A stretch of DNA of 64,000 nucleotides from Pseudomonas sessilinigenes (GTDB lineage: Bacteria > Pseudomonadota > Gammaproteobacteria > Pseudomonadales > Pseudomonadaceae), in the NCBI RefSeq assembly GCF_003850565.1, contig NZ_CP027706.1:5704001-5768000 (forward strand), read 5' to 3'. Of the stretch, positions 11,116-64,000 are shown one piece after another. The stretch's first letter is position 1. Each line of letters starts with the position of its first letter. Both the position numbers and the translations under genes were made by a program. The notes under the pieces are model-generated. The model ran no database searches. It had not been told where the DNA came from and saw nothing but the letters and a program-made list of their open reading frames with translations.

Positions 11116-12549
11116 ATGGAACTTCATGTAGTGATCAACGGCCGCAAGGACCTGGCCGAGCAGCTCTACCAGCAGCTGCGCAGCGCCATGGAGTCCGGAC
11201 GACTGGCCGCCGGTAGCCAGCTTCCTCCCAGCCGGTTGCTGGCTGAACAGTTGGGTATCTCGCGCAAGACGGTGTCCGACACCTACACCCTGCTGACCTA
11301 CGAAGGCTACCTGGTTGGCAAGATCGGCCGCGGCACCTTCGTCAGCCCTCGCCCGATCAAGGCCGCACATAAGCAAGAGGCCCAGGACCTGGCCTGCGCC
11401 CAGAGCCTGGCCCGCTGGCAAGCCATACCCTCGCCACTGCGCCACCCAAGCCTGGAAGGCACGCTGCGCTATGAGTTCATTGGTGGCGCTACCACCCGCG
11501 CGCAGTTTCCCGCAGAACAGTGGCGACGCTGCACCCAGGATGCACTGCGCCGCCTGAGCCAGGCAGGCAGCTTCTACAGCCAACCCGAGGGCTTGCCGGT
11601 GCTGCGTCACGCCATCGCCGGGCATGTGGCGTTTTCCCGCGGCGTGGTGTGCACGGACCAGGACATTGTCGTATGCAATGGCGCCCAACAAGCCCTGGAC
11701 CTGATTGCCCGGGTGATCCTGGAACCCGGCAGCCTGGTGGCCATGGAGGACCCGGGCTACACCCCGGCGCGCCTGCTGTTCCAGGCCCAGGGTGCCCAGG
11801 TGCTGGGAATCCCGGTAGATGACGAGGGCATAGAGGTGGCCAGGATCCCCGATGGCGTACGGTTGATCTATGTCACGCCCTCGCACCAGTTCCCCCTGGG
11901 CATGCCCATGAGCGAGGCTCGCCGCAAGGCTCTTTTGGAACGGGCACGGGAACTGGGGGCAATCGTCATCGAGGATGACTACGACAGCGAGTTCCGCTAC
12001 GAGGGGCGTCCTGCCGACTCCCTGCAAAGCCTGGACAGCCTCGGGGTGGTGGCCTATGTCGGGACCTTCTCCAAGACCATCCTGCCGCAGCTGCGACTGG
12101 GCTACGCGGTACTACCACCAGCGATCCTGGCTGCGGTGACCAAGGCCAAGCAATTGAGCGATTGCCACACCGCGACCCTGTCGCAATGGGCGCTGGCCAA
12201 GTTCATCGACGAGGGCTACCTGCAAAAGCACATCCGTCGTTGCCACACGGTGTACGCAGGGCGCCGCGAGCGCATCCTCCAGCGCCTGCAAGGCGACCTG
12301 GCGCCCTGGCTGGAGGCGGTGCCCTGCACGGCCGGGTTCCACCTGGCGGCCTTGTGCAAGGTGCCGGTGGACATCCCGCTGCTGCTGGACCTGGCGAAGA
12401 AGGTGGAAGTCGGCCTCTACTCCCTGCACGAGTTCTTCCACGACCACCCGGTACGTGCTGGCCTGTTCATCGGCTTCGGAGCCATCGAGACCCTGGACAT
12501 CGACCCGGCCCTGGACAAGGTGCGCGATATCCTGAGGCAGATCACCTGA
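11116..12549 (+). CDS. MocR/PdxR-type transcriptional regulator (GntR wHTH fused to aminotransferase fold)
   Basis: This 477-residue protein carries an N-terminal GntR winged helix (LYQQLRSAMESGRLAAGSQLPPSRLLAEQLGISRKTV). A type I aminotransferase-like domain follows, with the PLP Lys in GTFSKTILPQLRLGY. Family members sense PLP or amino compounds and regulate transporters or metabolic genes, usually nearby. A TTG lies 12 bp upstream, but ATG at 11116 is the more likely start. The only adjacent same-strand gene is the periplasmic cupin 106 bp downstream, which may or may not be a target. Confidence 0.82.
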   Translation: MELHVVINGRKDLAEQLYQQLRSAMESGRLAAGSQLPPSRLLAEQLGISRKTVSDTYTLLTYEGYLVGKIGRGTFVSPRPIKAAHKQEAQDLACAQSLARWQAIPSPLRHPSLEGTLRYEFIGGATTRAQFPAEQWRRCTQDALRRLSQAGSFYSQPEGLPVLRHAIAGHVAFSRGVVCTDQDIVVCNGAQQALDLIARVILEPGSLVAMEDPGYTPARLLFQAQGAQVLGIPVDDEGIEVARIPDGVRLIYVTPSHQFPLGMPMSEARRKALLERARELGAIVIEDDYDSEFRYEGRPADSLQSLDSLGVVAYVGTFSKTILPQLRLGYAVLPPAILAAVTKAKQLSDCHTATLSQWALAKFIDEGYLQKHIRRCHTVYAGRRERILQRLQGDLAPWLEAVPCTAGFHLAALCKVPVDIPLLLDLAKKVEVGLYSLHEFFHDHPVRAGLFIGFGAIETLDIDPALDKVRDILRQIT

Positions 12550-52408: not shown

Positions 52409-53971
52409 ATGAAACCCGAAGACTTTCGTGCCTCCCCCGATCGCCCGCTGACCGGTGCCGAATACCTGGCCAGCCTGCGCGACGACCGTGAAATCTATAT
52501 CTATGGCGACCGGGTCAAGGACGTCACCACCCACCCGGCCTTTCGCAACTCGGCCGCGTCCATGGCCCGCCTGTACGATGCCCTGCACGACCCGGCCACC
52601 CACGAGCAACTGTGCTGGCCCACCGACACCGGCAATGCTGGCTACACCCACAAGTTCTTCCGTTCGGCCAGGAGCCCCGACGAGTTGCGCCAGCAACGCG
52701 ACGCCATCGCCGACTGGTCGCGCCTGACCTACGGCTGGATGGGCCGCAGCCCCGACTACAAGGCGGCCTTCGGCAGCGTGCTGGGGGCCAACGCCGAGTT
52801 CTACGGGCCCTTCGCCGACAACGCGCGGACCTGGTACAAGCGCATCCAGGAGGCCTGCCTCTACCTCAACCACGCCATCGTCAACCCGCCCATCGACCGC
52901 GACAAACCGGTGGACCAGGTCAAGGATGTGTTCATCTCGGTGGACGAGGAAGTCGAAGGCGGGATCATCGTCAGCGGCGCCAAGGTGGTGGCCACCAACT
53001 CGGCGCTGACCCACTACAACTTCGTCGGCCAGGGCTCGGCCCAGTTGCTGGGGGACAACACCGATTTCGCCCTGATGTTCATCGCGCCGATGAACACCCG
53101 GGGCATGAAGCTGATCTGCCGCCCCTCCTACGAACTCCAGGCCGGCATGAGCGGTTCGCCCTTCGACTACCCGCTGTCCAGCCGCTTCGACGAGAACGAC
53201 GCGATCCTGATCATGGACAAGGTGTTCATCCCCTGGGAGAACGTGCTGATCTACCGCGACTTCGAGCGTTGCCGACAGTGGTTCCCCCAGGGCGGCTTCG
53301 GCCGGTTGTTCCCGATGCAGGGCTGTACCCGGCTGGCGGTCAAGCTGGACTTCATCAGTGGCCTGCTGGTCAAGGCCCTGCAATGCACCGGTGCCCTGGA
53401 GTTTCGCGGGGTCCAGGCCCAGGTCGGCGAGGTGGTGGCCTGGCGCAACCTGTTCTGGTCCCTGACCGACGCCATGCACGGCAATGCCAGCGAGTGGCAA
53501 AACGGCGTCTACCTGCCCAGCGCCCAGGCCCTGCAGGCCTACCGGGTGCTGGCGCCCCAGGCCTATACCGAGATCAAGAAGATCATCGAGCAGGTGGTGG
53601 CCAGCGGCCTGATCTACCTGCCCTCCGGTTCCCGGGACCTCAAGGACCCCGTGCTCAACCAGTACCTGGGCACCTATTGCCGCGGTTCGGGAGGCATGGG
53701 TCACGAGGAGCGGATCAAGATCCTCAAGCTGTTGTGGGATGCCATCGGCACCGAGTTCGGCGGCCGCCACGAGCTGTACGAGATCAACTACGCCGGCAGC
53801 CAGGACGAGATCCGCATGCAGTGCCTGCGCCACGCCCAGGCCAGCGGCTCGATGCAAGCCATGACCGCCCTGGTGGACAAGTGCCTGAGCGACTACGACC
53901 TCAATGGCTGGACCGTGCCGCACCTGAGCAACCCCGACGACATCAACATGCTCGACCGCATCCGCCAGTAG
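52409..53971 (+). CDS. hpaB: 4-Hydroxyphenylacetate 3-monooxygenase, oxygenase component HpaB
   Basis: The 520-residue FADH2-dependent phenol ortho-hydroxylase matches E. coli HpaB in length and at both ends (MKPEDFRAS; DGWTVPHLSNPDDINMLD). Internal blocks include YGDRVKDVTTHPAFRN, LTYGWMGRSPDYKAAF and YPLSSRFDENDAILIMD. It turns 4-hydroxyphenylacetate and many other para-substituted phenols into catechols, using reduced FAD from HpaC 54 bp downstream. The remaining homoprotocatechuate genes are not in the window, so here it may serve another phenol. It starts an operon-like run. Confidence 0.93.
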   Translation: MKPEDFRASPDRPLTGAEYLASLRDDREIYIYGDRVKDVTTHPAFRNSAASMARLYDALHDPATHEQLCWPTDTGNAGYTHKFFRSARSPDELRQQRDAIADWSRLTYGWMGRSPDYKAAFGSVLGANAEFYGPFADNARTWYKRIQEACLYLNHAIVNPPIDRDKPVDQVKDVFISVDEEVEGGIIVSGAKVVATNSALTHYNFVGQGSAQLLGDNTDFALMFIAPMNTRGMKLICRPSYELQAGMSGSPFDYPLSSRFDENDAILIMDKVFIPWENVLIYRDFERCRQWFPQGGFGRLFPMQGCTRLAVKLDFISGLLVKALQCTGALEFRGVQAQVGEVVAWRNLFWSLTDAMHGNASEWQNGVYLPSAQALQAYRVLAPQAYTEIKKIIEQVVASGLIYLPSGSRDLKDPVLNQYLGTYCRGSGGMGHEERIKILKLLWDAIGTEFGGRHELYEINYAGSQDEIRMQCLRHAQASGSMQAMTALVDKCLSDYDLNGWTVPHLSNPDDINMLDRIRQ

Positions 53972-54025
53972 TCGTGTGCAGCGAGGGCCACGAGCCCTCG
54001 CCACCCAGGCCTTCGGAGAACCCTC

Positions 54026-54538
54026 ATGTCCGTACTCGACCCCAAGCAACTCGCCTTTCGCAACGCCATGGCGCACATGACCGCAGCGGTCAACGTCATC
54101 ACCAGCAATGGCCCGGCCGGCCGTTGCGGCATCACCGCCACGGCGGTGTGCTCGATCACCGACAGCCCGCCGACGCTGATGGTCTGCGTCAACCGCAACA
54201 GCGCCCTGAACCCGGTGTTCAAGGGCAATGGCCGGCTGTGCGTGAACATCCTCAGCGGCGCCCATGAAGACCTGGCCCGGCACTTCGCCGGCATGACCGG
54301 CGTAGCCATGGACCAGCGCTTCGGCCTGCACCCCTGGCGCGACGGCCTGCAGGCCCTGCCGGTGCTGGAGGATGCCCTGGCCAGCCTGCAGGGACGGATC
54401 ACCGAGGTCCAGGAAATCGGCACCCACTCGCTGATGCTGGTGGAGCTGGACGAGATCAGCGTGCAGGAGCGCGGTGATTCGCTGGTGTACTTCAGCCGCA
54501 GCTTCCACCGCCTACCCCGGCCCTGCCAGGCCGCCTGA
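54026..54538 (+). CDS. hpaC: Flavin reductase component HpaC
   Basis: This 170-residue flavin:NADH reductase has exactly the length of E. coli HpaC. It contains FRNAMAHMTAAVNVITSNGPAGRCGITATAVCSITDSPPTLMVC (flavin-binding block) and NPVFKGNGRLCVNIL, then RHFAGMTGVAMDQRFGL. It supplies FADH2 to HpaB by diffusion. CGGAG precedes the ATG. Confidence 0.92.
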   Translation: MSVLDPKQLAFRNAMAHMTAAVNVITSNGPAGRCGITATAVCSITDSPPTLMVCVNRNSALNPVFKGNGRLCVNILSGAHEDLARHFAGMTGVAMDQRFGLHPWRDGLQALPVLEDALASLQGRITEVQEIGTHSLMLVELDEISVQERGDSLVYFSRSFHRLPRPCQAA

Positions 54539-54676
54539 ACCCCGCCCTCCCGGCCCGGGCCCCGTGCCACCTCCTGCATTTGTAGGATGGCGGCCAGCGG
54601 TCCAGGCGCCGATACTCGACCCAGGCCCTGCCCACGCCTGCCCTGGCGTACCGGCCGTCGATCCTTCAGTGACGAA

Positions 54677-54687
54677 AACAATAACAA
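54677..54687 (+). promoter_or_regulatory. A-rich CA-type motif before the LuxR regulator
   Basis: AACAATAACAA contains two overlapping AAnAAnAA matches and lies 23-33 bp before the LuxR-family ATG. Confidence 0.45.
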
Positions 54688-54709
54688 CGTCGCCCCGAGG
54701 TACCGCGCC

Positions 54710-55687
54710 ATGAGTCGATCCCAGCCTCCTTCGCCCGGCCGCTTGCAGGCCTTCAGCGAACTGGTCCTGGCCTTGCAGCAACTGGCCCATAACAAGGACA
54801 TCGAACACCTGCACCAGCACGCCCTGGCCCGCATCGCCAGGTTGCTGCCCTTCGACAGCGCCTGGTGGGGCCGCTCGGCCCTGGTGGACGGCGTGCCGGA
54901 CGAACACAGCTGCTACCTGTACCGCCTGCCCCCCAGCTACCTGCCGGACTGGCAATCGATCCGCCATGTCGATGTCACCGTGAGCCGGGTTCACCAGGTA
55001 CCGGGCCGGTCGGTGATCGTCGACATGGCCGACCCGGACAACGGCGCCGGCCTGAACTGGCTGGGGCGCCTGTACAACATCGGCGAGCTGCTGTGCGTGG
55101 TGCACATCGATCCCCATACCCAGCTGAGCAGCCACCTGGCCCTGTACCGCCAACCCGGCGCAGCGCGTTTCACCACGGAGGATTGCGAGCTGCTGGACAA
55201 CCTGATGCTGCACCTGGTGGCGGCGGTCTCGGCCAACCAGATCCGCACCCTGGTGGCCACCCGCGAGCAACTCACCCGGCCGCGCAACCTGGCCCTGGCG
55301 GTCTGCGACCAGCGCGGCGTGTTGCACTGCGCCGAGAGTGGTTTCGTCGAACTGCTGCTCAACGAATGGCCGCACTGGAGCGGCCCGCAGCTGCCGCAAC
55401 CCTTGGAGCTGGGCAACTACGAAGGCAAGTGCCTGCAAGTGGAGTCCCAGGCGGTGGGCGACCTGTTCCTGCTGGCGGCTCGCAGTCGCACCTTGCTGCC
55501 CCAGCTCAGCCCCCGGGAAAACGAGGTCGCGCAGAGCTTCGGCGACGGCAAGACCTACAAGGAAGTGGCGCGCGACCTGGGCATGTCGCCCAACACCGTG
55601 CGACATCACATCCGCGCCATCTACAGCAAGCTCGGGGTCAAGGACAAGGCGCGCATCGCCCAACTGCTGCACGCCCCGCCCGACTGA
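54710..55687 (+). CDS. LuxR-type (GerE) transcriptional regulator of the catabolic island
   Basis: The 325-residue protein has a large N-terminal GAF-like half with no autoinducer-binding signature, and a C-terminal GerE helix-turn-helix (LSPRENEVAQSFGDGKTYKEVARDLGMSPNTVRHHIRAIYSKLGV). It is probably a one-component regulator sensing an aromatic substrate or metabolite. It lies between hpaC and the outer-membrane/transport genes on the same strand. The ATG at 54710 has GAGG 10 nt upstream. Confidence 0.82.
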   Translation: MSRSQPPSPGRLQAFSELVLALQQLAHNKDIEHLHQHALARIARLLPFDSAWWGRSALVDGVPDEHSCYLYRLPPSYLPDWQSIRHVDVTVSRVHQVPGRSVIVDMADPDNGAGLNWLGRLYNIGELLCVVHIDPHTQLSSHLALYRQPGAARFTTEDCELLDNLMLHLVAAVSANQIRTLVATREQLTRPRNLALAVCDQRGVLHCAESGFVELLLNEWPHWSGPQLPQPLELGNYEGKCLQVESQAVGDLFLLAARSRTLLPQLSPRENEVAQSFGDGKTYKEVARDLGMSPNTVRHHIRAIYSKLGVKDKARIAQLLHAPPD

Positions 55688-55793
55688 CCCTCGTCGCGCC
55701 TTCCCACGCTGATTCGCGCCGTCGCCTGTGACGGCCACGGGCAGCCTTTGCCCTGTTTCCAGTCCCTGCCGCCTGCCGGCAAGCCCTGCGCCG

Positions 55794-55801
55794 AACAACA
55801 A
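55794..55801 (+). promoter_or_regulatory. A-rich CA-type motif before the outer-membrane channel gene
   Basis: AACAACAA, with a further CAACAAG nearby, fits AAnAAnAA 24-31 bp before the ATG at 55825. Confidence 0.45.
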
Positions 55802-55824
55802 CGCCAACAAGAGACGCATCGCCC

Positions 55825-56697
55825 ATGACCAGGAACCTTATCCGTACCGCGCTTGCCGTGGCCAGCACCCTGGCCAGCCTGTCGCCCCAGGCCGCCGATC
55901 TCAACGCCCGGGACTTCTTCGCCGCCCCGGTGGGCACCAACCTGGGCGTGCTGTACCTACCCGCCACCCGCGCCGACAACTTCCATGGCCCCGCCGACAC
56001 CACCGGCAAGGCCGACCTGCGAGTCAATGCCATGGCCTATCGCCAGGTGTTCTTCAGCGACCTGTGCGGCACCCTGTGCACGCCGCAGTTCATCGTGCCC
56101 TTCGTCGACACCGATGCGCGCCTGCCGGGCGCCGCGGGCCGTAGTCGCCAGAGCGGTTTTGGCGATCCCCAGGTGGGCGGCACGCTGTTCTTCATCAACC
56201 AGCCGCAAAGCCGCACCTACAGCGGCTTGCTGACCCTGATCACGCTGCCGGTGGGCGAGTACCACAGCCGCGAGCCCGGGGTCTCGCCAGGGGCCAACCG
56301 CTGGGGCGCGACCTTCGTCTACAACTACACCCAGGGCCTGGGCGAGAAGTGGGTCCTGGAGGCCAACCTCGAAGCCCAGTTCTACGCCACCAACGATGAC
56401 TACCTGGGCAGCGACCTCAAGCAGGACCCGCTGTACCGCCTGCAAGCCTTCGCGTCCTACGACTTCACCCCCAGCACCTACGGCGCCCTGCGGCTGATCC
56501 AGGCCGATGGCGGCGAACTGCGCATCGACGACCGACGCATCGACGACACCCACCGGCGCTACACCCAGGTCGGATTCGAGCTGGGCCACTGGCTGGATTC
56601 GCGCAACCAACTGATGTTCAGCCTGTCGCGCAACGTCGCCACCGACAACGGTTTCGCCGGCACCGACGCCCTGTTGCGCCTGGTCCACGTGTTCTGA
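55825..56697 (+). CDS. Outer-membrane channel, MetA-pathway-of-phenol-degradation family
   Basis: The 290-residue protein has a signal peptide (MTRNLIRTALAVASTLASLSPQAAD) and a beta-barrel-like remainder with alternating aromatics, ending in VHVF (terminal Phe, as outer-membrane proteins require). Motifs such as GVLYLPATRADNFHG and GDPQVGGTLFFIN fit the SphA/phenol_MetA_deg family found in aromatic-degradation clusters. It likely lets hydrophobic or phenolic substrates cross the outer membrane. An MFS gene follows after 23 bp. Confidence 0.75.
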   Translation: MTRNLIRTALAVASTLASLSPQAADLNARDFFAAPVGTNLGVLYLPATRADNFHGPADTTGKADLRVNAMAYRQVFFSDLCGTLCTPQFIVPFVDTDARLPGAAGRSRQSGFGDPQVGGTLFFINQPQSRTYSGLLTLITLPVGEYHSREPGVSPGANRWGATFVYNYTQGLGEKWVLEANLEAQFYATNDDYLGSDLKQDPLYRLQAFASYDFTPSTYGALRLIQADGGELRIDDRRIDDTHRRYTQVGFELGHWLDSRNQLMFSLSRNVATDNGFAGTDALLRLVHVF

Positions 56698-56720
56698 CCC
56701 CCGTCCGAGGAAGCCCGTCC

Positions 56721-57887
56721 ATGCATAGTCACACCCCCGCCCTGAGCGACACCGCGCCATCTGCCCACCAACCCCTGGGGCTCCTGGCGGCGATCGTGCT
56801 GTTCGCCGCCATCACCCCCGCGGTGCTACTGATGGCCCCGGCCATCGCCGCGCAACTGGCCAGCCAGTGGCAACTGAGCCCAACCCAGATCGGCGACCTG
56901 TTCAGCGCCGAGCTGGGAGCCATGAGCCTGGCCACCCTGCCTGCCATCTGGTGGCTCAAGCACCTGGACTGGCGCCGCGCAGCCTTGTGCAGCGCCGTGC
57001 TGTTCATCGCCGCCAACCTGCTGTCGATGCTGGTCCATGACTATTGGCTGTTGCTGGTGGCGCGTTTTTGCAGCGCCCTGGCCGGCGGCTCGCTAATGAT
57101 CATCTGCCTGGCCAGCGCCGCTGCCAGCCCCAACCCCAGTCGCGCCTACGGCTTCTGGGTGATGGGCCAGCTGGTGCTGGGGGCCATTGGCCTGAGCCTG
57201 CTACCGCTGCTGTTCGAGCACTTCGGCCTCGGCGCCTGCTACCTGATCCTGGCGCTGCTGATGGTGCTCTGCCTGCCCCTGGCCCGGTGCTTTCCCGCCG
57301 GCGCCGAACAGTCACTGGACGCCGCCACGCCCGCCCCACCGATCTCCTGGTTCAAGGCCGGCCTGGGCATCCTCGGCATCCTCACCTTCTACATCAGCCT
57401 GAGCGGGGTCTGGACCTTCATCGGCGCCATTGGCAGCCAGGCCGGGCTCTCGGCCCAGGCCAGCGGCGACATCCTGGCCATCGCCACCCTGATGGGCATC
57501 GTCGGTGCCCTGTGCGCCACCTTGTTCGGCGACCGCCTGCCCGGCAGCGGCCTGCTGTGGCTGGGCTACGGCCTGATGGCCGGCTCGGTGCTGGTGCTGT
57601 ACGGCCAACCGCAACTGGCGCGCTTCGCCCTGGCGGCCCTGGTGTTCAAGTTCACCTGGACCTTCATCCTGCCCCTGGTGTTGGCGCGCATGGCGCAGAT
57701 GGATCGCAGCGGACGGTTGATGAACGCCTCCAACCTGGTGATCAGCGTCGGCCTGGCCATCGGCCCGGCCCTGGCCGGACGCCTGATCGAAAGCAGCGGC
57801 GGCTTCCACAGCCTGTTGCTGGCCGGCGCCGCCCTCACCCTGCTGTCCCTGGCCCTGGTCCTGGGCTGCCGCCCCACCCGCTCGTAA
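56721..57887 (+). CDS. MFS transporter of the catabolic island (1)
   Basis: The 388-residue protein has 12 hydrophobic helices typical of an MFS_1 carrier, starting with LLAAIVLFAAITPAVLLMAPAIAAQLASQWQLS. The helix 2-3 loop lacks the strict GxxxDRxGRR motif, reading IWWLKHLDWRRAALCSAV instead. It sits between the outer-membrane channel and the deacetylase-like gene, so uptake of the island substrate is the likely role; direction cannot be told from sequence. Confidence 0.8.
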   Translation: MHSHTPALSDTAPSAHQPLGLLAAIVLFAAITPAVLLMAPAIAAQLASQWQLSPTQIGDLFSAELGAMSLATLPAIWWLKHLDWRRAALCSAVLFIAANLLSMLVHDYWLLLVARFCSALAGGSLMIICLASAAASPNPSRAYGFWVMGQLVLGAIGLSLLPLLFEHFGLGACYLILALLMVLCLPLARCFPAGAEQSLDAATPAPPISWFKAGLGILGILTFYISLSGVWTFIGAIGSQAGLSAQASGDILAIATLMGIVGALCATLFGDRLPGSGLLWLGYGLMAGSVLVLYGQPQLARFALAALVFKFTWTFILPLVLARMAQMDRSGRLMNASNLVISVGLAIGPALAGRLIESSGGFHSLLLAGAALTLLSLALVLGCRPTRS

Positions 57888-57914
57888 CCGTTTTCTTGAA
57901 CGATGGATGTCACC

Positions 57915-59036
57915 ATGACCTGCAAAACCGCGTTTTTCTTCGATGAGCTGTGCCTGTGGCACAGCGCCAGCCCCCACAGCCTGACCCTGCCGGTAGGCGG
58001 TTGGGTGCAGCCACCGGCAGCCGCCGGACATGCCGAGTCGCCGGAAACCAAGCGCCGGCTGAAGAGCCTGATGGATGTCAGCGGGCTGACTCGGCAACTG
58101 CAACTGCGCAGCGCCGAACCGGCCAGCGACCAGGACCTGCTGCGGGTCCATGGCGCCGCCTACCTGCAGCGCTTCAAGGCCCTGAGCGATACCGGCGGCG
58201 GTGACCTGGGCGACCAGGCGCCAGTAGGGCCCGGCAGCTATGAAATCGCCAAATTGTCTGCCGGGCTGGCCATCGCCGCGGTGGATGCGGTGCTCAGCGG
58301 CGAGGCTGACAACGCCTACGCCCTGTCCCGGCCACCGGGGCACCACTGCCTGGCCGACCAGGCCATGGGGTTCTGCTTCCTGGCCAACATCGCCATCGCC
58401 ATCGAGGCGGCCAAGGCCCGCCACGGCCTGGGCAAAGTAGCGGTGATCGACTGGGACGTGCACCACGGCAACGGCACCCAGGCGATCTTCGAGGAGCGCG
58501 CCGACGTACTGACCCTGTCCCTGCACCAGGACGGCTGCTTCCCGGCCGGCTACGGCGGCGAGCAAGACCGTGGGCGCGGCCCGGGCCTGGGCTACAACAT
58601 CAACGTTCCGCTGCTGCCCGGCGGCGGGCACGACGCCTACCTGCAAGCCATGCAGCGCATCGTGGTGCCGGCGCTGGAGCGCTTCGAGCCGCAACTGATC
58701 ATCGTCGCCTGCGGCTACGACGCCAACGCTGTGGACCCGCTGGCGCGGATGCTGTTGCACAGCGACTCGTTCCGCGAGATGACCCAGTGCCTGCGCGACA
58801 CCGCCGCGCGCCTGTGTGGCGGGCGCCTGGTGCTGGTGCATGAAGGCGGCTACTCCGAGGCCTATGTGCCGTTCTGTGGCCTGGCGACCCTGGAGGCACT
58901 GTCAGGCATCCGCACTGCGGTCACCGACCCGATGCTGGAGTTCGTGCGCCTGCAGCAGCCCAAGGAACCGGTGCTGGCCCTGCAACGCCAGCTGCTGGAG
59001 CGCCAGGCCCAGGCGCTGGAGGCTTTCGCGCCCTGA
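57915..59036 (+). CDS. Class II histone-deacetylase-like amidohydrolase
   Basis: The 373-residue zinc hydrolase is close in layout to the bacterial HDAC-like amidohydrolase FB188. Catalytic pieces are all present: tandem His in SRPPGHHC, zinc ligands in DWDVHHGNG and CGYDAN, and the transition-state Tyr in EGGYSEAYVPFCG. Such enzymes remove acyl groups from amines (acetylpolyamines, N-acyl substrates). In this setting it may deacylate an aromatic amide or ester. ATG at 57903 is also in frame; 57915 gives the usual family N-terminus. It ends beside a MITE-like element. Confidence 0.87.
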   Translation: MTCKTAFFFDELCLWHSASPHSLTLPVGGWVQPPAAAGHAESPETKRRLKSLMDVSGLTRQLQLRSAEPASDQDLLRVHGAAYLQRFKALSDTGGGDLGDQAPVGPGSYEIAKLSAGLAIAAVDAVLSGEADNAYALSRPPGHHCLADQAMGFCFLANIAIAIEAAKARHGLGKVAVIDWDVHHGNGTQAIFEERADVLTLSLHQDGCFPAGYGGEQDRGRGPGLGYNINVPLLPGGGHDAYLQAMQRIVVPALERFEPQLIIVACGYDANAVDPLARMLLHSDSFREMTQCLRDTAARLCGGRLVLVHEGGYSEAYVPFCGLATLEALSGIRTAVTDPMLEFVRLQQPKEPVLALQRQLLERQAQALEAFAP

Positions 59037-59059
59037 GCCCTGCGGCGCCCGGTCGCTCA

Positions 59060-59217
59060 AGGGCACCTCTAAAAACTACCTGCGTTGTCATCGCTGCGTT
59101 AAAACCGACTGGTGCGCCAGCCCGGTCAAAATGCTCATTGACCCCTTGTAAACTGCGCTTTTTCACCGGTTTTTGCCTTGCGCTGGCTGCCTCGCCTACG
59201 TTTTTTTAAGGCGCCCT
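59060..59217. mobile_element. MITE-like element between convergent genes
   Basis: The left end reads AGGGCACCTCTAAAAACTAC and the reverse complement of the right end reads AGGGCGCCTTAAAAAAACG, imperfect terminal inverted repeats of about 20-25 bp around a 158-bp non-coding core. The right end touches the stop codon of the AraC gene. There is no transposase inside, so it would be a non-autonomous element. AT-rich runs contrast with the flanks. Confidence 0.5.
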
Positions 59218-60191
59218 CAAGCTGGCGTGGGGCCGTGGCGCCGCGCCTCACTGGGCGTGCGTTGGTAGCGGGCCTTGAAGGCCCGGGCGAAGTGCGCCTG
59301 GCTGGCAAAGCCATGGCGATAGGCGATCTCACTGATATCCAGCGCAGCCCCCTGGGGGCTGCACAGCAGTTGGTGAGCCTGTTGCAGGCGCTTCTCCAGG
59401 ATGAAGCGGCTGGGCACCCACTCCTCCAGGGCGAACAACCGGGCCAGGTGGCGCGGCGACACGCCGACCTGCGCCGCCACCCGCTCGCAACTCAACTCCG
59501 GGTCCGCCAGGTGCTCCTGGATGTACTGCTTGGCCGCCAGCAGGTAGGAGGCGCTCAGGGCGTTGATCGGCCGTTGCCCCACTTGCCCGGCGATCAGGCT
59601 GGCCAGCAGTTCGAAGGCCTGCTCCTGGTAGTCCTCGGCCGCACCGCACAAGGGCTGCTGGAAAAAAACCCGGGTGCGCTCGGCCAGGGTACGCAACAAC
59701 AGGCGCTGGCCACCGCCCTGCCCGCCGATCTTCAACGGCTGGTCGAAGCGCCGCAGGCAACGGCGGGCGAACTGCTCCTGGGGAATATCGAAGATGAACT
59801 GGCGCATGGCGGCGGAAAAACCGAACAGGTAGGGCTTGTCGGTGCGATACACCACCAGCTCGCCCGGCTGCAGCAACTGGCAGGTGCCACCCTGGTAGAA
59901 GAACGAACCGCTGTCGGTGACCAGGGAGACGAAGATCGATTCCTTGGGCGCGCCACGGATCATCGAACGGTCACGCTCCACGACATGTTCATTGCCGACG
60001 ATCCGCGCCAGGCGCATGGCGCTCAAGTGCAGGTTGTCCTGGCGGGCGGCGAAACCGCTCTCGGCGTAGGAGTTGCATTTGAGCCCCACCAGGGTGCTGG
60101 CGTTGTAGTCCTCCCAGAATGCCAGGCGCAGGTCCCGGTCGATGGCCTGGGTGCTGGCGTGGCGGGTTTCGAGCAAGGCGCATGGAGACAT
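59217..60191 (-). CDS. AraC-family regulator of the dioxygenase operon
   Basis: The 324-residue protein has an AraC-binding-like domain 2 sensor (GELVVYRTDKPYLFGFSAAMRQFIFDIP) and a C-terminal AraC DNA-binding domain (SCERVAAQVGVSPRHLARLF; ISEIAYRHGFASQAHFARAFKARYQRTPSEAR). It resembles FeaR/AraC regulators of aromatic catabolism. ATG at 60191 (A-rich GAGAAGAACAACA upstream) is chosen; 60206 is an alternative. It is divergent from the cupin dioxygenase gene, whose upstream region carries paired 22-bp-spaced repeats. Confidence 0.87.
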   Translation of the reverse strand: MSPCALLETRHASTQAIDRDLRLAFWEDYNASTLVGLKCNSYAESGFAARQDNLHLSAMRLARIVGNEHVVERDRSMIRGAPKESIFVSLVTDSGSFFYQGGTCQLLQPGELVVYRTDKPYLFGFSAAMRQFIFDIPQEQFARRCLRRFDQPLKIGGQGGGQRLLLRTLAERTRVFFQQPLCGAAEDYQEQAFELLASLIAGQVGQRPINALSASYLLAAKQYIQEHLADPELSCERVAAQVGVSPRHLARLFALEEWVPSRFILEKRLQQAHQLLCSPQGAALDISEIAYRHGFASQAHFARAFKARYQRTPSEARRHGPTPA

Positions 60192-60198
60192 TGTTGTT
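60191..60198 (-). promoter_or_regulatory. A-rich CA-type motif at the AraC start codon
   Basis: On the minus strand AACAACAA runs into the ATG, with AAGAACAA overlapping upstream. This is an ideal position for Hfq-Crc to block initiation. Confidence 0.4.
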
Positions 60199-60348
60199 CT
60201 TCTCATGGCAGCGGGATGTTTCCCGGACGGCAAGGCTCCGTCCAGGTACCTGAAGCCACGGAACCCGTGGCCTGCGGCCATTCATTAATATCTGAATGAT
60301 TTGCCCTGTCAACTTCCCCCGCCCACTGGCAGCAGCCAGGGCGCAACC

Positions 60349-60385
60349 GTCCGAAACCGACAACAAAGCGGTCCGATCCGGACAA
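60349..60385 (+). promoter_or_regulatory. Paired AraC-type direct repeats and promoter of the dioxygenase operon
   Basis: GTCCGAAACCGACAA (60349-60363) and GTCCGATCCGGACAA (60371-60385) are direct repeats exactly 22 bp apart. A -10-like TAGAGT lies at 60407-60412, so the second repeat overlaps the -35 region, the class II activation geometry of AraC proteins. The divergent AraC gene is the likely binder. Confidence 0.6.
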
Positions 60386-60472
60386 ACCACCCGCCCCCGG
60401 CCGGCCTAGAGTCGTGCCGTCAGCCCCGCTGGCATTGCACCGACGACTCCACGACAACAAGAGAGACCGACC

Positions 60473-61006
60473 ATGCCTGAAGCCGCCACCCGAGAGTTCT
60501 GGAAAGACCTGCAGCCCATCGCCAACTGCTTCAAGCCCGACGCCAAGCCCGAGGTCTACCTGCCCGACGCCGCCAGCGACGACCTGAGCCTGTACGTGCC
60601 CTTCACCGAGACCGTGTCTTCGCGCCCGCTGTGGATCTCCCCCAGCGAGAACCGCTGGTGCGACATCCTGATGGCCCGCAGCGCCGGGCTGGTCAACCGT
60701 CACTACCACCCCCACGAGGTCTTCGCCTACACCCTGTCCGGCAAGTGGGGCTACCTGGAGCACGATTGGACCGCCACCGCCGGCGACTTCGTCTACGAGA
60801 CCCCAGGCGAAGGCCACACCCTGGTGGCCTACGAACACGAGCAGCCGATGCGGGTGTTCTTCATCGTCAAGGGCCCGCTGATCTGGCTCGACGAACAGGG
60901 CGAGCCCGACGGCTACTTCGACGTGCACTCCTACATCGCCCTGTGCCGTGCGCACTACGAAAAGAACGGCCTGGGCGCGGCCCATATCGACACCCTGTTT
61001 CGCTGA
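60473..61006 (+). CDS. Cupin dioxygenase, 2,4'-dihydroxyacetophenone dioxygenase-like
   Basis: The 177-residue single-cupin protein has the length of known 2,4'-dihydroxyacetophenone dioxygenases. Metal-ligand motifs are LVNRHYHPHEVFAYTLSG (His, His, Glu) and ETPGEGHTLVAYEH (second-motif His); the block WISPSENRWCDILMA is conserved in that family as I recall it. Such enzymes cleave an aryl alpha-hydroxyketone to an aromatic acid and formate, using iron and oxygen. Other cupin dioxygenases are possible. It heads an operon with an MFS gene and an alcohol dehydrogenase. Confidence 0.7.
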   Translation: MPEAATREFWKDLQPIANCFKPDAKPEVYLPDAASDDLSLYVPFTETVSSRPLWISPSENRWCDILMARSAGLVNRHYHPHEVFAYTLSGKWGYLEHDWTATAGDFVYETPGEGHTLVAYEHEQPMRVFFIVKGPLIWLDEQGEPDGYFDVHSYIALCRAHYEKNGLGAAHIDTLFR

Positions 61007-61038
61007 TCACGGCCTCGACCTGCGTGCGGAGAATCACC

Positions 61039-62304
61039 ATGGCTTATAAAAACAACAAGGCCAGCTACGAGAACACCTTGCTGGGGGTGCTGTTCCTGAC
61101 CTTCGGCTTCGTGTTTTTCGACCGCCTGGCGCTGTCCTTCCTGTTCCCCTTCATGGCCGACGAGTTGCAACTGGGCAACCGCCACCTGGGCTTGCTGTCC
61201 TCGGTGCTGGCCCTGGCCTGGGCAGTATCCGGGGCGCTGGTAGGGGCCTGGTCGGACCGCCGGGGCCGGCGCAAGCCGCTCTTGATCGTCGCGGTGTTGC
61301 TGTTCTCGCTGTGTTCGGCGCTGTCGGGGCTGGTCACCGGCTTCCTCAGCCTGCTGCTGTTTCGCGCCATCATGGGCCTGGCCGAAGGGCCGATCCTGCC
61401 ACTGTCGCAATCGCTGATGGTGGAAGCTTCCTCACCCCACCGCCGGGGCCTGAACATGGGCCTGCTGCAAGGCTCGGCCGCCGGTTTGCTGGGGGCGGTG
61501 ATCGGCCCGCCGGTCCTGGTGGCCCTGGCCGAGGCCTACGGCTGGCGCCATGCGTTCATCATCTCGCTGGTGCCCGGCTTGCTGATCGCCCTGCTGATCT
61601 GGCGCTACGTCCAGCCGGATGCGCCCAGCCGCGCAGCGCCCATGCAGGGCCCCAGCGGCAACGGCGTCAGCCGGCTGGCGCTGCTCAAGAGCCGCAACAT
61701 CCTGCTGTGCACCCTGATCAGCTGCTTCTTCCTGACCTGGTTCATCGTGTTGATCTCCTTCACCCCGACCTTTCTGGTCAAGGTCCGCGACTACAGCCCG
61801 GCCAGCATGGGCACGGTGATGAGCTGCCTGGGCGGTGCCTGGGTGCTCTGGGGGTTTGGCGTACCGGCGATTTCCGACCGCATCGGCCGGCGCCCGACCC
61901 TGGTGCTGTTCTCGCTGGTGGCGGCCTGCTGTCCCTTGGCCCTGCTCTTTGCGCCCACGCCGTGGCTGCTGGGCGTGCTGATGCTGCTGACCTACACCGG
62001 GCTGGGCTGCTTCACCCTGTTCATGGCCACCATTCCGGCGGAGACCGTGCCCCGGGAAGTCATGGCCACGGCCCTGGGGCTGATCATGGGCATCGGTGAG
62101 CTGGTGGGCGGTTTCGTCGCCCCGACCCTCGCCGGTTTCGCCGCCGACCGCTTCGGTTTGTCGATCGTCATGTGGATGTCCTGCGCCGGCGCGCTGCTGG
62201 CCGCGGCCCTGGCCCTGCTGCTCAAGGAGACCGCGCCGGCGGTGCTGGCCCGGCGCCAGGCCGCGAACCTCCACTCACCGACCCTGCAAGGAGACCGCCC
62301 ATGA
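61039..62304 (+). CDS. MFS transporter of the catabolic island (2), aromatic-acid/anion symporter type
   Basis: The 421-residue protein has 12 helices and a canonical MFS motif A (GAWSDRRGRRKPLLI), with an early FFDRLALSFLFPFMADELQLG as in AAHS/ACS carriers of aromatic or organic acids. The N-terminal codons YKNNK encode AACAACAA (61051-61058), so the CA motif lies inside the start of the reading frame. It overlaps the next gene by 4 bp. Confidence 0.85.
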   Translation: MAYKNNKASYENTLLGVLFLTFGFVFFDRLALSFLFPFMADELQLGNRHLGLLSSVLALAWAVSGALVGAWSDRRGRRKPLLIVAVLLFSLCSALSGLVTGFLSLLLFRAIMGLAEGPILPLSQSLMVEASSPHRRGLNMGLLQGSAAGLLGAVIGPPVLVALAEAYGWRHAFIISLVPGLLIALLIWRYVQPDAPSRAAPMQGPSGNGVSRLALLKSRNILLCTLISCFFLTWFIVLISFTPTFLVKVRDYSPASMGTVMSCLGGAWVLWGFGVPAISDRIGRRPTLVLFSLVAACCPLALLFAPTPWLLGVLMLLTYTGLGCFTLFMATIPAETVPREVMATALGLIMGIGELVGGFVAPTLAGFAADRFGLSIVMWMSCAGALLAAALALLLKETAPAVLARRQAANLHSPTLQGDRP

Positions 62305-63365
62305 AAGCACTGCGTTGGCATGCTGCCCGCGACCTGCGCCTGAGCCAGGTACAACTGCGCCAGCCCGGCCTTGGCCAGGTGCTGCTGCAAGTCGCCTATT
62401 GCGGCATCTGCGGCAGCGACCTGCACGAATACGCCAATGGCCCGCATTCCATCCCCCAGCAGCAGGCGCATCCGCTGTCCGGTTGCCGGGCCCCCTTGAC
62501 CCTGGGCCACGAGTTCTGCGGCCAGGTGCTGGCCCTGGGCCCCGGAGTCGATCCCGGGCTGCTCGGCCAGCGGGTGGCGGTGGAGCCGGAATACCGTTGC
62601 GGCCAATGCCAGTATTGCCAGGCGGGCCAGTACAACCTCTGTGAGTCCATGGGTTTCATCGGCCTGATGGGCGACGGCGGTTTTGCCGAACAGGCGCTGG
62701 TGCCGGCCTACATGCTGCACCGGCTGCCCGATAGCGTCAGTTTCCGCCAGGCGGCGTTGCTGGAACCGGCGGCCGTGGCCTGCCATGCCTTGAACCAGAG
62801 CAGCCTGCAACCCGGCGCCAGTTGCGCGGTGTTCGGCCTGGGGCCCATCGGCCTGCTACTGGTACTGCTGGCCCGGCTCCGGGGGGTGGAGCGCATCTAT
62901 GCCGTAGACCTGGACCCCGGGCGCCGGCAATTGGCCCTGGAACTGGGCGCCACCCAGGCCCTGGATGGCGCGGCGCCCGACTTGCGCCAGCGCCTGCGGC
63001 AGTTGAGCGATGGCGGGCTGGACAGCGCCTTCGAGGCGGCCGGTAGCCAGCAGACCCTGGACCATGCCCTGCACAGCCTGCGCAAAGGCGGCGAAGCGGT
63101 GCTGGTGGGGCTGATGGGCCAGGTGCAATTCGATGCCTTCCACCTGGTCAACAACGAGCTGCGCCTGCTGGGCAGCGTCGGCTACCGCGACGTCTATCCG
63201 CAGTTGCTGGAGCTGCTGGCCAGCAAGGACCTGGACCTGTCGCGACTGGTCAGCCGCTGCCTGTCCCTGGAGCAGGCGGTAACGGAGGGTTTCGAGGTCC
63301 TGCTGCAGGACAAGCGCCAGATCAAGGTGCTGGTCAACCCCAGCCCGGCCCTGGCCGAAGCCTGA
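62301..63365 (+). CDS. Zinc-dependent medium-chain alcohol dehydrogenase, 2,3-butanediol dehydrogenase-like
   Basis: The 354-residue MDR enzyme has catalytic zinc ligands in YCGICGSDLHEY and LGHEFCG, the structural-zinc Cys cluster in YRCGQCQYCQAGQYNLC, and the NAD loop VFGLGPIGLLL. The sequence resembles butanediol/sorbitol-type dehydrogenases, which oxidise a vicinal diol to an alpha-hydroxyketone. That product type is exactly what the neighbouring cupin would cleave. It is coupled by ATGA to the MFS gene. Confidence 0.85.
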   Translation: MKALRWHAARDLRLSQVQLRQPGLGQVLLQVAYCGICGSDLHEYANGPHSIPQQQAHPLSGCRAPLTLGHEFCGQVLALGPGVDPGLLGQRVAVEPEYRCGQCQYCQAGQYNLCESMGFIGLMGDGGFAEQALVPAYMLHRLPDSVSFRQAALLEPAAVACHALNQSSLQPGASCAVFGLGPIGLLLVLLARLRGVERIYAVDLDPGRRQLALELGATQALDGAAPDLRQRLRQLSDGGLDSAFEAAGSQQTLDHALHSLRKGGEAVLVGLMGQVQFDAFHLVNNELRLLGSVGYRDVYPQLLELLASKDLDLSRLVSRCLSLEQAVTEGFEVLLQDKRQIKVLVNPSPALAEA

Positions 63366-63391
63366 TCGAGGCGCTGTTCATCACTCACCAC

Positions 63392-63402
63392 AAGAACAAC
63401 AA
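63392..63402 (+). promoter_or_regulatory. A-rich CA-type motif before the OprB-like porin gene
   Basis: AAGAACAACAA holds two overlapping AAnAAnAA matches 14-24 bp before the ATG at 63416. Confidence 0.5.
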
Positions 63403-63415
63403 ACGAGTACCCGAC

Positions 63416-64000
63416 ATGAATGCCACCCATGCACTCGGCCCGCTGCTGGCCGCCCTGCTGTTGCCCCTGCCCGGCCTTGCCGCTACCGCCAGCGAGCCGC
63501 GCAGCGGACCGCTGGCCGGCCTGGGCGACTACCTGGCCGGACAGGGCATCACCCCGCATCTCCAGTTCCTCAGCCTGTCGATGAAAAACCTCGACACCGG
63601 CCCCCGGCCCCACAGTTTCGGCAACAGCGGCGACCTGTTCGTCGGGGCCGATATCGACCTTGCAACCTTCGCCGGCCTGGACGGGGCGGCCCTGCATGTC
63701 GAGCAGACGCTGTTCATCCTCGACCAGGGGACCGGCGTGCCCACCTCGCGCAACTGGCAAGGGGCCGCCGGCAGCTACTTCGGCGGCGCGCCGATCCACA
63801 ACGACCTGACCAGCAACCAGTTGAGCCTGTTGACCTACCAGCAAACCTGGCTCGACAGCCAGGTCGACCTGAGCCTGGGGCGGACCAACGCCCGGCGCTA
63901 CTTCTACATCTACAACTGCGAGAGCACGGTGACCTGTAACGACCCGATCATCGAGGCCTCCACCGGTATCCTGCCGCCACCCTACGGGGCCTGGGGCGGC
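63416..64000 (+). CDS. OprB-family outer-membrane porin, N-terminal part, cut by window end
   Basis: The frame is open to the last base, with 195 residues visible. It has a signal peptide (MNATHALGPLLAALLLPLPGLAAT) and then OprB-type barrel sequence: GDYLAGQGITPHLQFLSLS, NSGDLFVGADIDLATFAGL and SLGRTNARRYFYIYNCE. OprB porins pass sugars, but relatives occur in aromatic-catabolic clusters. It lies 50 bp after the alcohol dehydrogenase gene and ends the visible part of the island. Confidence 0.85.
   Translation, partial: MNATHALGPLLAALLLPLPGLAATASEPRSGPLAGLGDYLAGQGITPHLQFLSLSMKNLDTGPRPHSFGNSGDLFVGADIDLATFAGLDGAALHVEQTLFILDQGTGVPTSRNWQGAAGSYFGGAPIHNDLTSNQLSLLTYQQTWLDSQVDLSLGRTNARRYFYIYNCESTVTCNDPIIEASTGILPPPYGAWGG

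Follow-up and report, generated by a model that had tools for sequence, protein, structure and literature searches.

Near the end of a 64,000-nucleotide stretch of the Pseudomonas sessilinigenes genome (contig NZ_CP027706.1, positions 5,704,001 to 5,768,000; hereafter the window) lies an operon-like row of genes headed by a close relative of 2,4'-dihydroxyacetophenone dioxygenase (DAD), a member of a small group of dioxygenases that cleave a side chain rather than the ring. We propose, with a probability of roughly 60%, that this operon degrades phenolic compounds with a two-carbon side chain through the oxidation of a diol to a ketone, which is then cleaved by DAD. The genome is a single contig of 6.9 Mb with a completeness of 100%, and the nearest named relatives at the locus include Pseudomonas piscis MC042 (L047, with compared genes 94-100% identical) and P. 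protegens; L and G numbers denote loci and genomes throughout. A preliminary description had assembled hpaBC, a histone deacetylase (HDAC)-like gene, the cupin and a dehydrogenase into a single catabolic island. All of the gene classes it named are present as open frames with matching families (LuxR HTH, a Phenol_MetA_deg outer-membrane protein, two MFS carriers, Hist_deacetyl, AraC HTH, cupin and zinc alcohol dehydrogenase). Judged by the gene comparisons below, positions 52409 to 64000 are better read as three modules, namely hpaBC (A), a LuxR-outer-membrane protein-MFS1-HDAC cassette (B) and the AraC/DAD operon (C), rather than as one island.

In the proposed pathway, the operon would run DAD-MFS-BDH-OprB-GMC under the control of a divergent FeaR-like AraC activator. 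The OprB porin and the MFS carrier would let the substrate in, and the butanediol-dehydrogenase-like enzyme (BDH) would oxidise 4-hydroxyphenyl-1,2-ethanediol to an aryl alpha-hydroxyketone of the 2,4'-dihydroxyacetophenone type. With O2, DAD would cleave this ketone to 4-hydroxybenzoate and formate, and the 4-hydroxybenzoate would go onward to the PobA route. An alcohol precursor, or else the opposite stereoisomer, may be the substrate of the GMC oxidoreductase.

The DAD relative and its probable phenol-binding site

The best solved match of the cupin is 4p9g, the DAD of Alcaligenes sp. 4HAP, and 22 of the 23 active-site residues taken from the description of that enzyme (PMC4219425) are identical in the window cupin, the exception being Met156, which is replaced by Leu. 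His76, His78, His114, Tyr93, Glu108, Trp61, Asp63, Phe43 and Phe129 are all identical (window numbering +1). Conservation was followed further in the best 80 of 339 related loci. Across these loci and the window, 13 of 15 checked positions are invariant, and His76, His78, His114, Tyr93, Trp61, Asp63 and Phe129 are unchanged in all 81 rows. In the published substrate model of DAD, Trp61 and Asp63 bond the phenol hydroxyl, and turnover drops to 5% without this hydroxyl, a value cited there from Enya et al. (PMC4219425). Since both phenol-binding residues of that model are invariant, the substrate of the window cupin is likely phenolic.

The identification of the cupin as a DAD relative, made in the preliminary description, therefore holds, with 76.9% identity to 4p9g and all but one of the active-site residues kept. 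By these two measures the cupin lies inside the DADs; phylogeny alone cannot settle the point with a tree that has no outgroup. That tree comprises 82 rows, and the rows beside 4p9g come from Caballeronia and, in two cases, Comamonas (fork 91/93). The wider role of DAD is called uncertain in PMC4219425.

A dehydrogenase beside DAD

Partner dehydrogenases were counted in the 68 of the 80 loci that offer at least 4 kb on each side, at an identity of 50% or more and within 5 kb of DAD. BDH or a short-chain dehydrogenase/reductase (SDR) was found in 64 of the 68, and in none only further out. A 65th locus (L080) carries an SDR of 73% identity that the overlap filter had hidden, bringing the count to 65/68, and in two loci (L102, L115) the SDR found in the same 5 kb is less closely related (31-39%). 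The partner types overlap: BDH is near DAD in 23 loci, SDR c10 in 27, SDR c13 in 13 and the 4avy-like SDR of Pseudomonas aeruginosa PA7 in 7. The last of these is nearly identical to solved chain 4avy, which we take to be PA4098. SDR c13 and the 4avy-like SDR are 49% identical and count as one family, while c10 is 31-33% identical to both, so that three families share the place adjoining DAD: butanediol-type medium-chain dehydrogenases/reductases, SDR c13/4avy-like and SDR c10. Among many SDR models, that of meso-2,3-butanediol dehydrogenase gives c10 and c13 190.1 and 188.0 bits against a cut-off of 270. The pairing of DAD with a dehydrogenase recurs in several proteobacterial families, and the swapping of three dehydrogenase families beside DAD supports the idea that an aryl diol is converted to an alpha-hydroxyketone and then cleaved. 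The core of the preliminary description, a dehydrogenase feeding DAD, is thus strengthened by these 65 loci and their interchanging partners.

The window BDH has (R,R)-butanediol dehydrogenase 6ie0 as its best solved match (275 bits), and none of the 23 NCBIfam models listed for it reaches its own cut-off. It carries a cysteine cluster at residues 99-114, presumably the structural zinc site. We propose that BDH is an aryl-1,2-ethanediol dehydrogenase, which in this operon would act in the direction of the ketone. Spacing within the operon is short, with gaps of 32 bases between DAD and MFS2, 50 between BDH and the porin and 35 between the porin and the GMC gene, and with an overlap of 4 bases between MFS2 and BDH; this argues for one transcript from DAD to GMC. 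The OprB porin crosses the end of the window and the GMC gene stands outside it, and the two adjacent transcription blocks of the preliminary description become three modules. In one BDH-type Pseudomonas locus (L077, 15411-17153), an IS66-type transposase follows the porin, where the others carry the GMC gene.

The FeaR-like AraC gene and MFS2, for which a role in uptake is inferred, stand beside DAD in all 32 Pseudomonas loci, and the porin in 30 of them. Of the 80 loci, 43 have an MFS relative, 31 have a branched-chain-type ABC permease and 6 have neither, and no locus combines the two. The ABC-type loci mostly also have an aldehyde dehydrogenase (28/80 overall) and a thiamine-diphosphate enzyme (17/80). 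The latter lies directly upstream of DAD in 16/80 loci, in Rhizobiaceae and kin (e.g., L087, L094, L110, L114). It scores over PRK08327, shows a distant resemblance to benzoylformate decarboxylases and to benzaldehyde lyase, and might make or split alpha-hydroxyketones.

A regulator and a putative operator

The nearest NCBIfam model of the AraC regulator is FeaR, at 101.5 bits and below its cut-off of 199, so that the protein can be called FeaR-like only; FeaR itself has a role in amine catabolism. In front of DAD lies a tandem direct repeat, a putative operator, with a -10-like hexamer, TAGAGT (60407-60412), 16 bases further downstream. The tandem GTCCGA-N6-CAA, with a 22-base period, begins 96-140 bases before DAD in the aligned Pseudomonas upstream regions and is matched in 31 of 33 (the window and 32 loci; missed in L058 and L061). 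It is the sole site of its kind in the window, at 50.1 bits, the best non-overlapping other site scoring -7.5. A weaker operator-like site (21.4) lies at the same place in Marinobacterium (L083); same-place hits in L091 (-6.2) and L099 (-2.3) have scores that are not meaningful, and a pattern scan found no operator-like site at that place in L111. The FeaR-like activator probably binds the tandem box in front of DAD, and its inducer would be a compound of the pathway's own kind. No second copy of the operator stands before hpaB, luxR or hpaA, and the AraC protein therefore probably does not join the three modules in one regulon. A scan for promoters and terminators yielded no more than in shuffled sequences.

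Three modules rather than one island

The reading of the region as one island was rejected on the company that DAD keeps elsewhere. HpaB lies within ~10 kb of DAD in 9/32 Pseudomonas loci and HDAC in 8/32, the 8 being a subset of the 9, and 23/32 have DAD without both; the blocks joined in the preliminary description are thus not co-conserved. Three of the 32 loci are incomplete, and L048 is too short on the left, where HpaB and HDAC would stand. In a sample of 199 genus genomes, including this one (cut-offs DAD E <= 1e-40, HDAC E <= 1e-60, HpaB E <= 1e-100), DAD is found in 9, HDAC in 21 and HpaB in 6. DAD and HDAC are both present in four genomes (G000, G061, G071, G181) and adjacent only in G000, the genome studied here, and G061, which also has the full window arrangement.

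Module B was followed in HDAC stretches of 6-17 kb each from 16 of the 20 other genus genomes with a hit; the sample does not include G042, G072, G120 and G172 (41-54% identity) or any second copies, and counts refer to the 15 stretches other than that of G061, which has the full window arrangement. The order LuxR-outer-membrane protein-MFS-HDAC is kept in 13 of the 15. The two exceptions are L135, with MFS1-HDAC at the contig start and a LuxR gene after, and L142, with HDAC only. Neither DAD nor HpaB occurs in any of the 15 stretches; L136 has a weak HpaC-like match. In L130 (G073:C14:80500-97500), the order is MCP-LuxR-OMP-MFS-HDAC-DUF1176-hpaA-hpaE-hpaD-hpaX (OMP, outer-membrane protein), the same site as in the window minus hpaB and DAD, and genome G073 has no DAD (E <= 1e-40) or HpaB (E <= 1e-100) anywhere. 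The cassette at the same site without DAD and hpaB indicates a highly modular region. The amidohydrolase itself is of the HDAC-like amidohydrolase (HDAH) type, with 284.3 bits to Hist_deacetyl and a close solved relative, 5li3. Further matches are dimethoate hydrolase 9gkw and propanil hydrolase 9gku, enzymes described as acting on small-molecule amides (PMC11532494), and an aryl-amide substrate is possible for it. Two more HDAC-like paralogues are found in the genome (G000:C1:2519805 and 6138129; 56% and 54% identity), both with a nearby MFS gene resembling that of module B (41-42%). Between the HDAC and AraC genes lies an intergenic repeat of ~140 bases (window 59071-59205; G000:C1:5763071-5763205), with 7 further long copies in the genome (82-93% identity); two of these fall within the region of the hpa operon, at 5775666 (before hpaD) and 5780239 (after hpaI).

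Module A has a pathway of its own. HpaB and HpaC score above their equivalog cut-offs (1056.8 versus 885.2 bits for HpaB-2, and 234.1 versus 205.95), and past the GMC gene come a DUF1176 gene and an AraC regulator scoring as HpaA (421.2 bits; cut-off 274.65), ~3.6 kb beyond the window end. After hpaA follow an HpaG C-terminal unit (405.1 bits), HpaE (740.2), HpaD (452.7; ~7.9 kb beyond the window end), HpaH (455.5) and HpaI (413.0), together with an HpaX-like carrier (302.2, under its 615.4 cut-off) and, between hpaD and hpaX, a 144-aa open frame at the expected position of hpaF. Both equivalog scores and the ring-cleavage operon identify HpaBC as 4-hydroxyphenylacetate 3-monooxygenase. With that operon next to hpaBC, the simplest role of HpaBC would be the first step of 4-hydroxyphenylacetate catabolism, as the front end of the ordinary pathway, and it is not needed to explain the DAD substrate. 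Close HpaB (96% or more) is found in only 2/199 genus genomes, G000 and G061, the other four hits being 47-49% identical. Pseudomonas chlororaphis 14D6 (G200, L053) has two HpaD copies (94%, 87%) and no HpaB in the 20 kb around its DAD.

A closer neighbourhood of HpaB and DAD is seen in P. aeruginosa PA7, where hpaBC stands right beside AraC-DAD, with no HDAC, and hpaD is ~36 kb from DAD; this arrangement leaves room for a weaker connection of HpaBC with DAD. In the same locus (L076, 2281-8739), a 303-aa protein, a transaminase (PRK07046) and an SDR precede hpaBC. No NCBIfam model matched the 303-aa protein. An amine origin of the substrate by way of this transaminase and SDR was considered and set aside: no relatives were found in the other 79 DAD loci at a 30% limit, save SDR-family matches of 32-41%, which shows that this gene order is not a conserved one. 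Among 11 further genomes retrieved as relatives of PA7, none has DAD or a BDH above 43% identity. On the sequence comparisons made here, hpaBC and the LuxR-HDAC cassette are neighbours of the DAD operon that probably have functions of their own.

Table 1 Features of the three modules, with positions in the window
Feature	Position	Strand	Remarks
hpaB, 4-hydroxyphenylacetate 3-monooxygenase oxygenase	52409..53971	+	TIGR02310 1056.8 bits; outside DAD operon
hpaC, flavin reductase	54026..54538	+	TIGR02296 234.1 bits
LuxR-type regulator	54710..55687	+	GerE; kept together with next three genes
Outer-membrane protein, Phenol_MetA_deg family	55825..56697	+	PF13557 117.2 bits
MFS transporter (MFS1)	56721..57887	+	MFS_1; adjoins HDAC in 14/15 stretches from other genomes
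HDAC-like amidohydrolase	57903..59036	+	Nearest solved HDAH chains 5li3/5g0x; 5li3 E 5.6e-195
AraC/XylS-family regulator, FeaR-like	59217..60281	-	HTH_18 and AraC_binding_2; divergent from DAD operon
Putative operator, tandem direct repeat	60349..60390	+	GTCCGA..CGACAA / GTCCGAT.CG.ACAAA, 22 bases apart
DAD cupin, 177 aa	60473..61006	+	4p9g phmmer E 1.9e-96; 76.9% identity over 173 aa
MFS transporter (MFS2)	61039..62304	+	MFS_1; nearest aromatic-acid/H+ symport subfamily, TIGR00895 120 bits, below 418.55 cut-off
Zinc medium-chain dehydrogenase, (R,R)-butanediol-dehydrogenase-like (BDH)	62301..63365	+	6ie0 E 8.2e-81
OprB-family porin, start in window	63416..64000	+	OprB 232.9 bits on L003:13416-14717; ends at equivalent 64717
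GMC oxidoreductase, beyond window	equivalent 64753-66414 (L003:14753-16414)		Follows porin

Weighing the explanations

Several points weigh against a diol-to-ketone route through DAD. Enzymes of the BDH and SDR types accept many alcohols, SDRs are frequent in general, and a further, unrelated SDR cluster (c18) is found elsewhere in 9 loci. The dehydrogenase families were picked for their frequency near DAD, so that the contrast between near and far is partly built in, and the 80 loci are the nearest of 339, leaving distant DADs unrepresented. One locus, L085 of Phytohalomonas tamaricis, has AraC-DAD-MFS and no recognised dehydrogenase, the next frame (386 aa, at 12215) being PLD-like. In the DAD tree, which has no outgroup, the branch leading to 4p9g is long and falls outside the Pseudomonas rows. 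The proposed sink is also of limited help. PobA is present in this genome and over the cut-off in 32/35 DAD genomes searched, the genomes of L047 (close kin), L077 and L099 having none over the cut-off; it is found in 158/199 genus genomes, and being common in Pseudomonas anyway it is weak evidence that discriminates little. DAD was, moreover, first studied in degraders of 4-hydroxyacetophenone, where the precursor is a methyl ketone and not a diol (PMC4219425).

This last point leads to the main rival, in which the operon serves the degradation of 4-ethylphenol or 4-hydroxyacetophenone. The methyl ketone would be hydroxylated to 2,4'-dihydroxyacetophenone by an enzyme encoded elsewhere, DAD would cleave the product, and the dehydrogenases would act on 1-(4-hydroxyphenyl)ethanol, which a secondary-alcohol dehydrogenase could oxidise, or on a side product. 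DAD was first found in this pathway (PMC4219425), a role that we regard as unlikely for the operon. Only one hydroxylase, HpaB (8 loci), was recognised among the 37 clusters found in at least 5/80 DAD loci, a result obtained with a rough gene caller that kept DAD in 54/80, so that a gene may have been missed, and what recurs at DAD loci instead is dehydrogenases near vicinal-diol families. An action of the cupin and dehydrogenase on lignin-derived phenylpropanones or guaiacyl compounds, giving vanillate-type acids from methoxylated alpha-hydroxyketones, would agree with a four-gene cluster of Novosphingobium MBES04 that has a DAD-like gene and is induced by lignin fragments via phenylpropanones (PMC10866074). 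The pocket residues that hold an unmethoxylated 4-hydroxyphenyl ring in the published model (PMC4219425) are invariant, and this makes such substrates improbable. Most improbable of all is a single island in which HpaBC, HDAC and DAD would work in sequence on one N-acylated or amine-derived substrate. The modules do occur together in 8/32 Pseudomonas DAD loci, PA7 has hpaBC beside its AraC-DAD block without HDAC, the regulator is FeaR-like, and amide hydrolases that act on dimethoate and propanil are among the relatives of the HDAC (PMC11532494). However, 23/32 DAD loci lack both HpaB and HDAC, the HDAC cassette is whole in 13/15 stretches with DAD or hpaB in none, G073 (L130) has it beside hpaA-hpaE-hpaD-hpaX without DAD or HpaB at the cut-offs, hpaBC has its own hpa operon, and the DAD operator is not common to the other modules.

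The route from diol to ketone to DAD cleavage is therefore retained for the operon. In the preliminary description, the dioxygenase call and the pairing with a dehydrogenase were good, whereas joining the genes into one island was not borne out; the parts it gave to HpaBC and to deacylation by HDAC are not supported, as hpaBC has an adjoining hpa operon with HpaB rarely near DAD, and the HDAC cassette stands apart from DAD elsewhere. The assignment of hpaBC and HDAC to the DAD route is corrected accordingly. More tentatively, the recurring loci may reflect a widespread 'arylglycol' pathway, in which diol dehydrogenases of interchangeable families would oxidise 1,2-ethanediols with a phenolic ring, 4-hydroxyphenylglycol of plant, lignin or octopamine-type origin being one example, for cleavage by DAD. 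In Rhizobiales-type loci, the pathway would come with an ABC importer and an aldehyde dehydrogenase as well, and in many cases with a thiamine-diphosphate enzyme. If true, this would give DAD its physiological role across proteobacteria. The partner dehydrogenase, importer, regulator and operator-like repeat together define a pathway and a class of inducers that can be tested directly; the operon may explain the use of phenolic glycols by soil bacteria.

Comparison with known systems

Although DAD itself is already known, no account of this operon, of DAD linked to an arylglycol dehydrogenase or of a diol-to-DAD pathway was found in the open-licence full texts searched, a scope that leaves out most subscription papers. 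The hpa/homoprotocatechuate pathway is recognisable in hpaBC in the window and in hpaA, the hpaG C-terminal unit, hpaE, hpaD, the hpaX-like carrier, hpaH and hpaI downstream, but here 13 kb with modules B and C separates hpaC from hpaA. The module B cassette, whose HDAC is close to the solved HDAH chains 5li3/5g0x, recurs with identical gene content and order in 13/15 stretches from other Pseudomonas genomes; in the window it sits between hpaBC and the DAD operon. The cluster of Novosphingobium MBES04 likewise has a DAD-like gene in an inducible aromatic cluster; it differs in being phenylpropanone-induced, and its other three genes are called hypothetical (PMC10866074). In Comamonas serinivorans SP-35, a DAD is annotated and 3,4-dihydroxyphenylglycol (DHPG) was reported in lignin cultures, as well as in the alkali-lignin control, but the authors route the glycol to mandelates by mammalian analogy and not via an alpha-hydroxyketone and DAD; the bacterial pathway of DHPG was described there as lacking information as of 2018 (PMC6307125). 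The nearest known counterpart of the window cupin remains the Alcaligenes sp. 4HAP DAD (4p9g), which has 77% identity, equal length and the same iron and substrate residues, and which is described within a 4-hydroxyacetophenone pathway (PMC4219425), whereas the operon presented here would bring the same cleavage to the end of a diol oxidation.

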